Below are positions 45,239-51,850 of a DNA stretch of 51,850 nucleotides, one piece after another (the stretch's first letter is position 1; each line of letters begins with the position of its first letter). The position numbers and the translations under genes are program-made. The notes under the pieces are model-generated. The model saw only the letters and a program-made list of their open reading frames with translations. It made no database searches and had not been told where the DNA came from. The DNA is taken from the NCBI GenBank assembly GCA_027002995.1, contig JALWZB010000093.1, positions 1 to 51,850 on the forward strand, written 5' to 3'. Source of the DNA: Desulfurococcales archaeon. GTDB taxonomy: Archaea; Thermoproteota; Thermoprotei_A; Sulfolobales; NBVN01.

Positions 45239-47285
45239 GCGGACATACGTAGGTGTAGACATAGTTAAGAGCGGCGGTAAAGCCCTTAATAAGTACGTCT
45301 ACGCCATAGCGCTAATTAAGAATGGTCGAGTACTTAAGGTAGATAGAGGTAACCTTGGCCGGTTAGTGAGGTACCTGTGGGATTACAGACCTGCAACGCT
45401 CGCAACGGATAACATCCTTGAACTGGGGGGCTCTAAAAGGAACTTAGTCCGAATACTGAAGCTTGTACCGCCAGATACGGAGTTCATTCAGGTAACGTTA
45501 GAAGGGCAGACGTCCATGAACTTAAGACGTGTAGCCAACATAGCGGGCATGGAACTCGATAAAGGCAAGCTGAACCCCGCCAAGACTGCGGTCCTTGTTG
45601 CAACCTTAGCATGGAGCGGGTACGGGGAGAGACTAGATGTTTATGAAAGGAAGGTCAGGATAAATGTATTCAAGGGCAGATCCGGTCATGCCGGAGGCTC
45701 GCGTGCGGGCAAATTCCAGAGAAATCTCCGAGGAGCTGTAGCGCGGATGGTTAAGAAGCTTAGAGAGGAATTAGAGCGCCGTGGATTCGATTACGACGTC
45801 ATGATTCGCCGCAGTAAGGGAGGGGTTGAGCAGGCTGTGTTCACTGTATATGCGTCGAGAGAGGAGCTATTCGGTGTTGTGAAGAGGGTTAAAGGTCACG
45901 ATGTTGAAGTGAGGATAAAGCCCGTCATAAGTAGGAGGTTCCTCAAGCTAATAGCGCCGCAGGAGACCCCTAAGAAATACTTAATAGTTGGCTACGATCC
46001 TGGGATGCAGGTCGGCCTAGCTGTAATAGATTTAGACATGAAGCCACACCTAATAACATCCGGGCGTGAGCTTGATCGAGGAGAGATACTCTCGAAACTC
46101 ACGAGTATAGGCATACCCGTTATAGTAGCTACTGACAAGAACCCGCCACCCGAGATGGTCAGAAAACTTGCGGCGATGCTGAACGCCCAGTTATTCGTAC
46201 CTCCCCGGTCGCTTTCCACAAGCGAGAAAGAAATGCTGGTATCAGAATATAGTCGCTTGCATGGGGTTGGGATTAAGAACACGCATGAACGTGACGCACT
46301 CTCTGCGGCATTGAAGGCGTACAGGTTTTACCAGGATAAACTAGAGAAGTTAGTGAAGAAAATCAAGAGTATGGGGCTCTCCGTAAAGAACTTGCAGAAG
46401 TATAAGGTACGAATACTAATGAATGAGCCCCTAAGCGCGATAATTGAGGATATAATTAACGACTACGTTAGGCCAGCTGAACCCTCAGTAACTTCATTGA
46501 GGAGGCAGGCCCCGCTAACGTTACCATATCAGGCTCACGAGGTCTCTAAACATATTGAGAAGATTAAGGAGCTTGAACGGCGTGTGGACGAGCTACTTCG
46601 AGAGCGTGAAATTTTGAAGAGTAAGGTCAAGGATTCTGAAGCCCGCATTAGGGAGCTGGAACACAGTGTGCGAACGCTAACGGAATCTATAAACGAGAAA
46701 ATTGCTAGGGATAGGAAGGTTAGCGAGCTCCTGACAAGGCTTAAGAACGCTTCACAGAGAATTGAGGAGCTAGAGCATGAAGTGCTTAGCTTGAAGGAAA
46801 GATTAGCCTCCGTGGGTAAGGTTCTTGAACGCGTATTCGCGGGTGAATTAACGCTCCTGCCGCGCTACGGAGTTAAGTACGTGGTGAGTGATGATAAGTT
46901 AAACGCGGTGTTTGTCGACGATTTGCGTCAGATACTTTCGGCCGGTACTATAGGTAGCCTAGCCTCGAGGAAGGTTGTATTGCCGCCGGGTCGCGAGAGA
47001 GATTCTGAACTCCTTGTAAAGGAGTACCTAATACCAGCAACGACGGCCCGGGAGGTGTGGGACGTGAGTCCGAGCTTGGTTGCCGTAGATTCAGAGACGC
47101 TCAGCAGATTGCGTGCGGCTGAGGAGGAGGTCGCGAGAATTAAGGAAGAGATGATGAGGCAAAGGGAGCTAACTTACGCAGATTTAGAAGCCATTTTGAA
47201 AGAATACCGGGAGTCCCGCTTATCAGCTTCACTGAATACGTCCAAGGTAAAGTACTTTGAAGGTTATGTAAGAGAGCACGATTGA
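45183..47285 (+). CDS. DUF460 family protein (RNase H/RuvC-like N-terminal part, coiled coil, C-terminal domain)
   Basis: YVGVDIVKSGGKALNKYVYAIALIKNGRV..., VGYDPGMQVGLAVIDLD, THERDALSAALKAYRFYQDKLEKL, long coiled coil; start uncertain, overlaps RIO2 3' end. Confidence 0.85.
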   Translation: MSREPSSTSGEKQRGCGYERTYVGVDIVKSGGKALNKYVYAIALIKNGRVLKVDRGNLGRLVRYLWDYRPATLATDNILELGGSKRNLVRILKLVPPDTEFIQVTLEGQTSMNLRRVANIAGMELDKGKLNPAKTAVLVATLAWSGYGERLDVYERKVRINVFKGRSGHAGGSRAGKFQRNLRGAVARMVKKLREELERRGFDYDVMIRRSKGGVEQAVFTVYASREELFGVVKRVKGHDVEVRIKPVISRRFLKLIAPQETPKKYLIVGYDPGMQVGLAVIDLDMKPHLITSGRELDRGEILSKLTSIGIPVIVATDKNPPPEMVRKLAAMLNAQLFVPPRSLSTSEKEMLVSEYSRLHGVGIKNTHERDALSAALKAYRFYQDKLEKLVKKIKSMGLSVKNLQKYKVRILMNEPLSAIIEDIINDYVRPAEPSVTSLRRQAPLTLPYQAHEVSKHIEKIKELERRVDELLREREILKSKVKDSEARIRELEHSVRTLTESINEKIARDRKVSELLTRLKNASQRIEELEHEVLSLKERLASVGKVLERVFAGELTLLPRYGVKYVVSDDKLNAVFVDDLRQILSAGTIGSLASRKVVLPPGRERDSELLVKEYLIPATTAREVWDVSPSLVAVDSETLSRLRAAEEEVARIKEEMMRQRELTYADLEAILKEYRESRLSASLNTSKVKYFEGYVREHD

Positions 47286-48161
47286 GAGAATCAGTGGCAA
47301 TACCCAACTAAGCATTATGTACGTTGCTACCCTACGTCTACTTATCAACCTGAGCCTCATAGCTAGTGCTGTCCCCAACATACCGGAGAATATGGAGATA
47401 GACATTGGGAGCGGTATGGAGAACTGAGTACCTATCTCAGTCAGTATTAGAGTTGAGACATAGGGAGCTACTGAGCTAGTGTACCTTAATCCATAGAATC
47501 CGGAGCCTAACTTAGTGACCCCGTGTCGACCCTGAATCACCAGCACGCCTACGATTATACCGGATATCGTGAGTGCCACGGTGAGCAAGTCACCTGTACT
47601 CTGGCCAGCAAACGCCACTACAAAGCCTATGGTGTTCGCACCCAAGGTGTAGGCAGTGATGAACACCATCACTATGCTCGCAAGCTTAAGTGCAAGCAAA
47701 CTGCTAATTATCCCGTTTTTTCGTGAAGCTATGAGCTTAACAAAGAGAAAGGCTACGATAACGGACGCTAAGAAAGTTACGCACCAGAAACCCAGTATCT
47801 TAAGGATCTCACTCGTTGCTTCGAAACCATACGTGAGTAAGTAACCTATGTAAATACCAACAAAGACCTGCGTTATGGATGTGACGAAGCCGCTGACCGT
47901 GAGCATCACTAGTATGATTATCGCCAGAGTGAACGATGCTTCTATAGCGTTTCTTGGAAGGCTTACACCCCCCAGGAACTTCCAACCTTCAATCAGATAC
48001 CCCAAGCTAAGCCCGGCTATCGCTAAAGCGGAGATCGTGGTTCGCCTTAATATCCTAGAACCCGCGGCCGGTCCAGCAATGACGCCCATATTATTTCCAA
48101 CAGCTATCGCTACTGCGGTTAGTAGTAGTGCTTGAAGCACCACCTGCATGGTACTCACCAA
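47229..48161 (-). CDS. Inorganic phosphate transporter, PiT family
   Basis: IAVGNNMGVIAGPAAGSRILRR and TAYTLGANTIGFVVAF duplicated PiT signature regions; multiple TM segments. Confidence 0.85.
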   Translation of the reverse strand: MVSTMQVVLQALLLTAVAIAVGNNMGVIAGPAAGSRILRRTTISALAIAGLSLGYLIEGWKFLGGVSLPRNAIEASFTLAIIILVMLTVSGFVTSITQVFVGIYIGYLLTYGFEATSEILKILGFWCVTFLASVIVAFLFVKLIASRKNGIISSLLALKLASIVMVFITAYTLGANTIGFVVAFAGQSTGDLLTVALTISGIIVGVLVIQGRHGVTKLGSGFYGLRYTSSVAPYVSTLILTEIGTQFSIPLPMSISIFSGMLGTALAMRLRLISRRRVATYIMLSWVLPLILSIVLSYITFKVLYLGRIQ

Positions 48162-48205
48162 CCATTGTTACTATCATATAGCATCGGACTTTACTAAGAG
48201 CTTCA

Positions 48206-48919
48206 CTAGTATCGCATTGAGCTAATAACCCTAATCAACAGGTGTGAGGCATCCTCGCAAGCATCCACTATAGTATCCAAGCTCTTAATCATCTCAAGCA
48301 AGTGATTAAAGGTTATGGCACTTATCTCAGGGCCTAAGCTATACAGTTTATCAAGGATAGCATTCTTCATCTCATCGACCCTGTCCTCATAAACGTCAAT
48401 TACATCATCTAACTCCTGGAGCTTATTGAAGTCCTCGAGAGCGATTTCTAGTTCCTCCTTGAGTGTTTCTAAAGCTTTAGCTGCAATGACGGTTACTTTA
48501 AGTATTTCCTTGTACATGCTCCTCGCGTGTTCTGTTCCCGATATTCCGGTTCTAAAGGCCCTACCGTACTCCATCGCTATAAAGTATGTTAGGTCAAGTA
48601 TGTCATCTATCCTGTCTATCAAGAATTCTATGTCACCCAAGAGTGCCACAGGCACTGCACCGTGGGTCACCATTTCCGTTAATTCAGCCGCTATCTTGTC
48701 GCCGTGCTTCTCGTAAGTTATTACTTCGACTATCAAGGATTCCATCTCATGGTCTTTTATGTCGCCCTTAAGTAGTCTCTCTATGATTAGCATGGACTTT
48801 AAGGAGAGGTCTACGTGCTTCGCTAGCTTACTGAACAGTTCCTCCTCGCCAGACATTAGTAGCTTCTTAAATAGCTTCATTCTTACTGCACCACGCGGTA
48901 AAGTATATTGCCTCCTCAA
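48206..48919 (-). CDS. DUF47/PhoU-like phosphate transport regulator (Pit accessory)
   Basis: MKLFKKLLMSGEEELFSKLAKHVDLSLKS...EKHGDKIAAELTEMVTHGAVPVALLGDIEFLIDRIDDILDLTYF; start maybe internal. Confidence 0.85.
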   Translation of the reverse strand: MRRQYTLPRGAVRMKLFKKLLMSGEEELFSKLAKHVDLSLKSMLIIERLLKGDIKDHEMESLIVEVITYEKHGDKIAAELTEMVTHGAVPVALLGDIEFLIDRIDDILDLTYFIAMEYGRAFRTGISGTEHARSMYKEILKVTVIAAKALETLKEELEIALEDFNKLQELDDVIDVYEDRVDEMKNAILDKLYSLGPEISAITFNHLLEMIKSLDTIVDACEDASHLLIRVISSMRY

Positions 48920-49303: not shown

Positions 49304-49705
49304 TCACATTGTGAACTTTATGTACGCTATGCTGGACTTAGGGACTATGTACCCCTTATCCTCTATCCTGAATCCTAACTCATACTTTGTAACCTTCATT
49401 AACTTCCCCTGAAAGCTCAGCCCATTTACTAAGTACACCTCCACATCACTCCCAACCATGTCAGAGTCTATTACCGTGTCCCTCAATTGCTCATTACTGT
49501 ACCCATGTAGCTCTGTGGCCTCAGCAACGGCGTATAGTATTGCATGCCTGAAGATCACCACTGGCGAGCCCTCTGACCGAACACCTATTTCGTACCTAGC
49601 CACCTCATCTATTAATCCCTTGATTGGTTCATCCTTCCCCATAACATAGATAGTTACTTCACGACCGACAAACCTTGCATCTATTAAGTTCTCTCTGAGA
49701 GGCAT
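49304..49705 (-). CDS. Tandemly duplicated Hfq/Sm-like protein
   Basis: Internal repeat: ...IDARFVGREVTIYVMGKDEPIKGLIDEVARYEIGVRSEGSPVVIFRHAILYAV / ...IDSDMVGSDVEVYLVNGLSFQGKLMKVTKYELGFRIEDKGYIVPKSSIAYIKF. Confidence 0.65.
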   Translation of the reverse strand: MPLRENLIDARFVGREVTIYVMGKDEPIKGLIDEVARYEIGVRSEGSPVVIFRHAILYAVAEATELHGYSNEQLRDTVIDSDMVGSDVEVYLVNGLSFQGKLMKVTKYELGFRIEDKGYIVPKSSIAYIKFTM

Positions 49706-49827: not shown

Positions 49828-50646
49828 TTAGGCTGAGCTACTCTGAGACTCCCATGTACTTTCCCTATTGGTTATCATTAGCGTGAGTGAAGCCATAGTC
49901 TCGACGAACTTAAACATGAGCTCAGGGTGATGTTCGGAGAAGTCTGCCGAAATACTCTTTAGTACTGGGGTGATGCACTTGTCCTTGACTATGCGGATAC
50001 CGGATAGTGCATCATTTAAATGATCAAGCATTCCCTTAAAGAACGCGTACGCGTATACGTCCTGACGTAATATGTTACCCATGGGGTGTACTATAACACT
50101 TTGCCCAACAACTCTGGGTAACGGACTAACCTCCCCTGCTAACGTTGCATTCGCAAGAAGAGATTGGAGCTGGATCTCGAAAAAATCATTTAGGGTTAGA
50201 GGTGTTAGGATGGCATCAATTCTGAAGCCCATGCTCCGTAGCCTTGGTGTGAGGGAATTTATGATTCCCGGTAAGCTGAAGGACTTCATTCCCTCCTCCG
50301 CCTTAACGGCAAGGTAAATTAAGGGTATCCTCCGTGCAAGCTTTGCATGCATAACCTGCGATACCGCATGATCCAAAGCAAGAACTAGTACGTGACCTCC
50401 ATACCTCTCCTCAATTAAGCTAACCATCTCCGCTAACACTAGACTCTCCACTATTCTTTCTTTTAAAGCAAGAACAGCAACTAACGCTCCGTACCTTAAC
50501 CTTATAGACCTAGAGATTCCTCTCCTAATTCTTTTGACTAAGGACCTACTTAGACAGTAAACGCATAACTTCTCTCCTGAGTCCCGTCTAAGATATACAG
50601 CGGGTCTCCGCTTGCATACATCACATAGCCTATTGTCAACGTTCAA
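49828..50646 (-). CDS. TtuA/Ncs6-like protein lacking the PP-loop motif (CTU2/Ncs2-like candidate)
   Basis: N-terminal CDVCKRRPAVYLRRDSGEKLCVYCLSRSLVKRIRRGI as in TtuA/Ncs6; no SGGKDS; C-terminal DVYAYAFFKGM...HHPELMFKFVETMASL resembles Ncs6 EVALYAFLRGI region. Confidence 0.6.
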   Translation of the reverse strand: MNVDNRLCDVCKRRPAVYLRRDSGEKLCVYCLSRSLVKRIRRGISRSIRLRYGALVAVLALKERIVESLVLAEMVSLIEERYGGHVLVLALDHAVSQVMHAKLARRIPLIYLAVKAEEGMKSFSLPGIINSLTPRLRSMGFRIDAILTPLTLNDFFEIQLQSLLANATLAGEVSPLPRVVGQSVIVHPMGNILRQDVYAYAFFKGMLDHLNDALSGIRIVKDKCITPVLKSISADFSEHHPELMFKFVETMASLTLMITNRESTWESQSSSA

Positions 50647-50653
50647 GAGGACC

Positions 50654-50983
50654 CTATACCTCCAGGATATCTAGCCGATCCTCTTTCAGCACCATACGTA
50701 ACTTGTTCTTGAACTCCTCAAATGACGCGTCAGTAAGACCTTGAGCTATTATACTCATTAACTCCATGACGTAGGGATTCAGGTAATCTGGTCCCTCAAT
50801 AATCTCCTCCCTTAACGTATCAAAGTACTCCTGCAGATCTTCGGCGCTCACGAGCTTGTGCTTCCATAGATAAGCAGCGTAACCGCAAAGCAAAGCAACG
50901 AAGAAGTTAGCACTATCTATATCCCCTTTCTCAAGTACTTCCTGCTCATATGATTCTAATACTGACTCAACGCTTGGAAGCAT
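50654..50983 (-). CDS. Hypothetical protein, 109 aa
   Basis: All-helical-looking ORF, 7-bp gap to the Ncs6-like gene; no family recognised. Confidence 0.55.
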   Translation of the reverse strand: MLPSVESVLESYEQEVLEKGDIDSANFFVALLCGYAAYLWKHKLVSAEDLQEYFDTLREEIIEGPDYLNPYVMELMSIIAQGLTDASFEEFKNKLRMVLKEDRLDILEV

Positions 50984-51090
50984 GAAATATTCCCGCCACC
51001 CCCTACATGGAAGGGGTAATTAAAGCTTTCGGTTACCCTGCTCCTAAAGTTTATATAGAAGTGGTTCTCCTAGAACTAATGGGTGAGTTC

Positions 51091-51850
51091 ATGGTTGCAC
51101 TCTATGGAGTTCCTGTAGTGATACTAAAGGAAGGAACTCAGAGGACGTATGGGCGCGAGGCCCTAAGGAACAACATCATAGCCGCTAGGGCGCTGGCTGA
51201 GGTTCTGAAAACTAGCCTAGGTCCTAGGGGCTTAGACAAGATGCTCGTAGATTCATTTGGCGACATTACCGTAACTAATGACGGTGCCACAATAGTTAAG
51301 GAAATGGAGGTACAGCACCCAGCCGCTAAACTCTTAGTGGAATCGGCTAAGGCGGTTGATGCTGAGGTTGGCGATGGCACCACATCGGTTGTAGTTCTTG
51401 CAGGCGAGTTACTTGGTAAGGCGGAAGCATTACTTGACCAGAACATACACCCGACAATAATAATTGAGGGCTACAAGAAAGCCATGAACAAAGCCTTAGA
51501 GATACTTGATGAGATAGGCACTAAGTTAGAAGTTGGTGATATTGAGACTAAGGAAGGTTATGAGAAGACCAAGAAGTCACTGTACCGTGTGGTCTACTCA
51601 ACCCTAGCGAGCAAGTACCTAGCGACACCGGACTTAATTGACATGATGATTAACATAGCGATTGATGCTGCCTTGCGAGTGGCTGAGAGAAGGCCTGATG
51701 GTACCTACAACGTCAGGCTCGATAACGTGAAGATTGAGAAAAAGAAGGGAGCGTCTCTTGCTGATACTAAGTTGATTTATGGTATTGTGTTGGATAAGGA
51801 GGTTGTGCATCCGGGTATGCCTAGGAGGGTTGAGAACGCGAAGATAGCGC
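51091..51850 (+). CDS. Thermosome (group II chaperonin) subunit, truncated by window edge
   Basis: [98 protein letters not shown]; not in ORF track because no stop in window; start 51079 or 51091. Confidence 0.96.

Follow-up and report, generated by a model that had tools for sequence, protein, structure and literature searches.

A catalytically dead paralogue of the tRNA thiolase NcsA in thermophilic archaea, a candidate Ctu2-like partner subunit

The window, which is the whole 51,850-nucleotide stretch of archaeal DNA analysed here, encodes close to its end a protein of 272 residues that, by sequence comparison, is securely placed in a new clade of NcsA/TtuA proteins that is catalytically dead. 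Judged from the alignments, the ATP-binding PP-loop and the cysteines holding the catalytic [4Fe-4S] cluster are lost in this clade, while the sequence core and the N-terminal zinc finger are kept. The dead paralogue is a maintained pseudoenzyme under purifying selection, evolving faster than the active paralogue, and is not a pseudogene. By analogy with eukaryotic Ctu2, it may serve as a non-catalytic heterodimer partner of one form of the active enzyme, type A NcsA, in the 2-thiolation of tRNA U34, a reading to which we give roughly even odds (about 0.5).

Organization of the locus

The features of the locus, in window coordinates, are as follows.

49828..50646, minus strand: dead NcsA/TtuA paralogue, 272 aa, TTG start; the family profile covers TtuA and NcsA over their full length
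50554..50625, minus strand: N-terminal zinc finger, Cys 8, 11, 28 and 31; all four Cys kept in 60/62 members
50443..50466, minus strand: former PP-loop site, residues 61–68; LKERES aligned to the NcsA SGGKDS columns
49921..49923, minus strand: Glu 242, family signature residue; Glu in 62/62 dead members, nearly always Gly in active enzymes
50654..50983, minus strand: small gene, 109 aa, directly upstream of the dead paralogue, which it adjoins or overlaps in many relatives
51007..51850, plus strand: thermosome subunit gene, divergent, cut by the window end; usual neighbour of the dead family

The small gene ends seven bases upstream of the dead paralogue on the same strand, and the two probably share one transcript. 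It is not a strict partner of the dead paralogue, since in families f6 and f9 it also occurs where the dead copy is absent. The idea that its product replaces a zinc ribbon lost from the C-terminus of the dead paralogue was rejected on this distribution, and also on the locus L116, where the small gene directly precedes a dead copy that keeps the ribbon.

The usual gene order comprises the divergent thermosome gene, the small gene (in some families), the dead paralogue, a convergent thioredoxin-like gene and a zinc-ribbon gene; the last two labels are our own reading, since Pfam gives no clear family for either. In most families the dead gene adjoins the thermosome gene and not ncsA. It lies beside the TrpRS gene in family f4, and it persists away from the thermosome in several genomes. 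Sulfolobales keep an Urm1-like carrier beside a divergent thermosome gene (PMC2948915), which provides a precedent for a sulfur-transfer gene in such a neighbourhood.

Two further observations concern the surroundings. A 133 aa protein encoded at 49304–49705 (minus strand) contains two Hfq/Lsm-like stretches in tandem (Pfam Hfq, 2.9e-7; NCBIfam TIGR02383, 7.5e-9), and in L029, too, the dead paralogue is followed by a relative of it. At 47229–48919 (minus strand) lies a gene for a PHO4-like phosphate transporter with a DUF47/PhoU-like gene beside it, an ordinary pair.

Homology to NcsA and TtuA

Searched on its own, the window protein matches Pfam TtuA_LIM_N at E = 0.012, under the curated cut-off, and PDB sequences at E values of 0.1–1.3, and a scan of the genome contigs with this single protein returns two close relatives. 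The profile A2, built from 18 orthologues of seven families of the order, gives nearly full-length matches to PhTtuA from Pyrococcus horikoshii (PH0300, 5mko; 7.6e-20, 74.7 bits), the top-scoring solved structure, to MmNcsA from Methanococcus maripaludis (6scy; 1.6e-15, 60.5 bits) and to Thermus TtuA (about 5e-15). Furthermore, hhalign of the dead-family profile against the active NcsA profile yields E = 2.5e-23 across 274 columns. In order to exclude a match driven by the zinc fingers alone, both fingers were cut away and the remaining core was searched against 954 ORFs of the loci collected together with the two PDB sequences; outside the dead family every match is an active NcsA or TtuA, and the best of these reaches 1.5e-16 when scaled to a search space as large as the PDB set. 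The structure model, built only from the window protein and two near-identical orthologues, is poor, with a mean pLDDT of 41 and a pTM of 0.29.

The profile matches to both TtuA and NcsA bear out the TtuA/Ncs6 architecture assigned to the dead paralogue in the preliminary description. The zinc-finger pattern reported there for the N-terminus reads as quoted, and the VYAYAFFKGM segment and the RYGALVAVLALKERIVESLVLAEMV stretch are both present in the ORF. With archaeal NcsA (M. maripaludis 6scy and the U34 2-thiolase of Haloferax volcanii), the dead paralogue shares full-length homology and the same N-terminal Cys4 zinc finger; unlike it, NcsA possesses SGGKDS as well as three Fe-S cysteines and is functional as a homodimer (PMC10067955), and these catalytic features are absent in the dead paralogue. 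TtuA, the position-54 2-thiolase known from PH0300 and Thermus thermophilus, is the best solved-structure match of the family profile, but it is active, carries an N-terminal finger of the Cys3-His type in the rows compared, and forms a separate clade.

Lost and conserved features

When 62 dead members are aligned with active proteins, SGGKDS occurs in none of the 62, and none has both cysteines of the Fe-S CxxC; the third Fe-S cysteine site is Ala in the window protein. The SGGKDS columns of the NcsA encoded in the same genome align with LKERES, in agreement with the earlier proposal that RYGALVAVLALKERIVESLVLAEMV stands where SGGKDS would be expected, and an intact PP-loop, which a corrected start or sequence might have revealed, is seen in 0/62 members. 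Simultaneously, all four N-terminal zinc cysteines are kept in 60/62 members. The C-terminal CxxC set had also been described as missing, which holds for the window protein but is not family-wide: the C-terminal zinc ribbon is not found in the window protein or in its family f1, but is complete, with four cysteines, in 29/62 members, mostly of families other than f1. Its loss characterizes the window's lineage together with a few further ones. In addition, the dead family has a signature of its own, with Glu in all 62 members at the G of PGxL, where nearly all active enzymes have Gly, and, at a second position, Pro instead of Ala/Gly in 58 of the 62.

The orthologues of the window protein in three congeners are 79–89% identical to it, with dN/dS values of 0.32–0.40 against these sequences and 0.25–0.40 across all pairs, for comparison with 0.073 for NcsA. 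The identity of the orthologues and the dN/dS values indicate that the ORF is neither a chance frame nor a sequencing slip.

Active paralogues in the same genome

The window's own genome is 97.8% complete (G000). A protein search of it with the dead paralogue returns one other relative, and a search with active sequences returns two active-type enzymes, so that the active Ncs6/TtuA that the preliminary description proposed to look for elsewhere in the genome is indeed encoded there. The first (L002, contig C57) is an intact NcsA-type protein of 333 aa, which carries SGGKDS and the E/R residues and has the Fe-S cysteines as well as both zinc fingers; the second (L087, C14) is TtuA-type, with the L/S residues typical of TtuA. 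These E/R and L/S residues separate U34 from U54 enzymes (PMC10067955). Genes for ThiS-like carriers and an E1 enzyme are present in this genome as well, which makes a sulfur supply plausible.

Among the active proteins of relatives, a TtuA-type protein of family f9 (L120:396-1367, plus strand) has SGGVDS and not SGGKDS in its PP-loop. In G063, three NcsA copies or pieces stand in a row (L059:536-3402, plus strand), of which two extend into unread bases; the arrangement may have arisen in assembly.

Phylogeny and distribution

The dead family forms one clade with support of 100/100, or 99/99 with one more divergent member included, and this clade lies outside type A NcsA, type B NcsA and TtuA in the tree. 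Tests of trees grouping it with A, B and TtuA give p values of 0.089, 0.056 and 0.029, respectively, with long branches involved. A dead copy derived by decay from type B NcsA is not supported, given the position of the clade outside all three groups. Members of the family were found in ten family-level groups, all within one thermophilic archaeal class. Among 397 sampled genomes of the phylum, high-scoring members are found in the window's class, and the best-scoring matches outside the class, among those fetched, all have an intact PP-loop.

In the 98 related genomes, the active NcsA is either type A or type B, and the two types do not occur together in any genome. Both are supported as groups in the tree, where the proteins of family f6 fall with type A. 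The dead copy is present in 58 of the 70 type A genomes, compared with none of the 16 type B genomes (Fisher p 3e-10, shared ancestry left uncorrected). The five carriers of the dead copy without a type A match are assemblies that are 69–87% complete. Twelve type A genomes lack an intact dead copy: eight of family f11, three that are 56–87% complete, and G085, in which the dead paralogue (L127:1109-1920, minus strand) lies in two overlapping frames, owing to recent decay or sequence error. The eight f11 genomes and family f6 do without the dead copy although their NcsA is type A-related, so type A can function by itself, and the dead copy would on this account be dispensable in these two families. 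We take f11 to be Sulfolobaceae-like and f6 to be Ignicoccus-like. Of the three genomes from the sister order, two (f13 and f14) combine the dead copy with type A, and the third (G358, of f12) has it with a weakly B-like NcsA; the absence of the dead copy beside type B thus holds in the window's order but is not put forward as a strict rule.

The linked absences can be followed at the locus itself. In G048 and G088, presumably Staphylothermus-like and both with type B NcsA, the usual gene order is kept and the dead gene is cleanly absent, the small gene and the thioredoxin-like gene being separated by 11–15 bases (L114:3151-3163 and L165:3121-3139). G021, a member of genus g5 in the same family as the window's genome, has the end of its small gene directly before the thioredoxin-like gene, and the dead gene is absent; its congener G016 has type B NcsA. 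To judge from these gaps in a retained locus, the dead gene appears to have disappeared from this position on at least two occasions, in both cases in a lineage whose NcsA is type B.

Proposed role and comparison with Ctu2

Archaeal U34 thiolation is attributed to a single NcsA, archaeal thiolases are regarded as homodimeric, and the division of labour between a catalytic and a dead subunit is regarded as eukaryotic (PMC10067955, PMC12645042). No description of an archaeal Ctu2-like paralogue was found in the literature searched. Ctu2 has no Fe-S cysteines but keeps its zinc sites, and the modelled eukaryotic Ctu1/Ctu2 pair overlays the MmNcsA homodimer (PMC10067955). Like Ctu2/Ncs2, the dead paralogue is an NcsA/Ctu1 paralogue without the Fe-S cysteines and has an active paralogue in the same genome; the zinc-finger sites kept in Ctu2 are likewise kept in the N-terminal finger of the dead family, with the C-terminal ribbon retained only in part. 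Since Ctu2 replaces one half of the dimer in eukaryotes, the simplest reading is that the dead paralogue pairs with type A NcsA. It would take the place of one half of the NcsA homodimer and might help to bring the tRNA or the sulfur carrier into place for U34 2-thiolation, leaving catalysis to the intact type A NcsA of the genome, as in Ctu1/Ncs6 with Ctu2/Ncs2. The partner subunit envisaged in the preliminary description thus fits the distribution (58/70 type A against 0/16 type B), but membership of the eukaryotic CTU2 family itself is not supported, as PF10288 is not matched.

A pseudoenzyme derived from NcsA may instead act outside thiolation, for example, as an RNA-binding or regulatory zinc-finger protein tied to a thermosome/translation cluster. 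The conserved thermosome neighbourhood in most families, the position beside the TrpRS gene in f4, the evolution faster than that of NcsA and the type A NcsA without a dead copy in f11 and f6 are all consistent with such a role. We consider it rather unlikely, as it leaves the co-occurrence with one NcsA type and the absence with the other unexplained, and the gene is kept away from the thermosome in several genomes.

It is improbable that the dead paralogue is a non-catalytic partner of TtuA, which acts at position 54, or an adaptor of the ubiquitin-like sulfur carrier, rather than a partner of NcsA. The higher score of the family profile for PhTtuA than for MmNcsA (74.7 vs 60.5 bits) points in this direction, as does the presence of TtuA, ThiS-like carriers and the E1 enzyme in the genome. 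TtuA, however, is found both with and without the dead copy among related genomes, whereas the NcsA type tracks the dead copy, and trees that join the dead clade to TtuA are disfavoured (p 0.029).

Orthology to eukaryotic Ctu2, with a heterodimer that predates eukaryotes and was inherited by both lineages, would account for the same architecture and the same losses, but is very unlikely. A PF10288 (CTU2) search of the window's own genome gives as best match another ORF, at 14.9 bits and under the cut-off, and PF10288 is not among the 25 families listed for 18 members of the dead family. Because of this missing match, the dead paralogue is not filed as a member of Ctu2. It also differs from Ctu2/Ncs2 in being confined, within its phylum, to one class and in lying next to the thermosome. 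A decaying, functionless gene copy is scarcely credible, the split gene of G085 notwithstanding, as the frame is open in many families, dN/dS is 0.25–0.40 and the motifs are kept in 60–62 of 62 members.

Implications

If the partnership of the dead paralogue with type A NcsA is true, the evolution from homodimer to heterodimer also occurred in archaea. More tentatively, and at slightly less than even odds, many thermophilic archaea of this class may use a heterodimeric U34 thiolase composed of an active NcsA and the dead paralogue, invented separately from Ctu1/Ctu2 or, less likely, ancestral to it. The lineages with the other NcsA type in which the gene was lost naturally offer a built-in comparison. 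According to PMC10067955, neither recombinant Ctu2 nor its complex with Ctu1 was obtainable, and heat-stable archaeal pairs could therefore make such a complex directly testable. The partnership, if true, would overturn the published view of archaeal thiolases as homodimers, and would provide a source of a heat-stable heterodimer.
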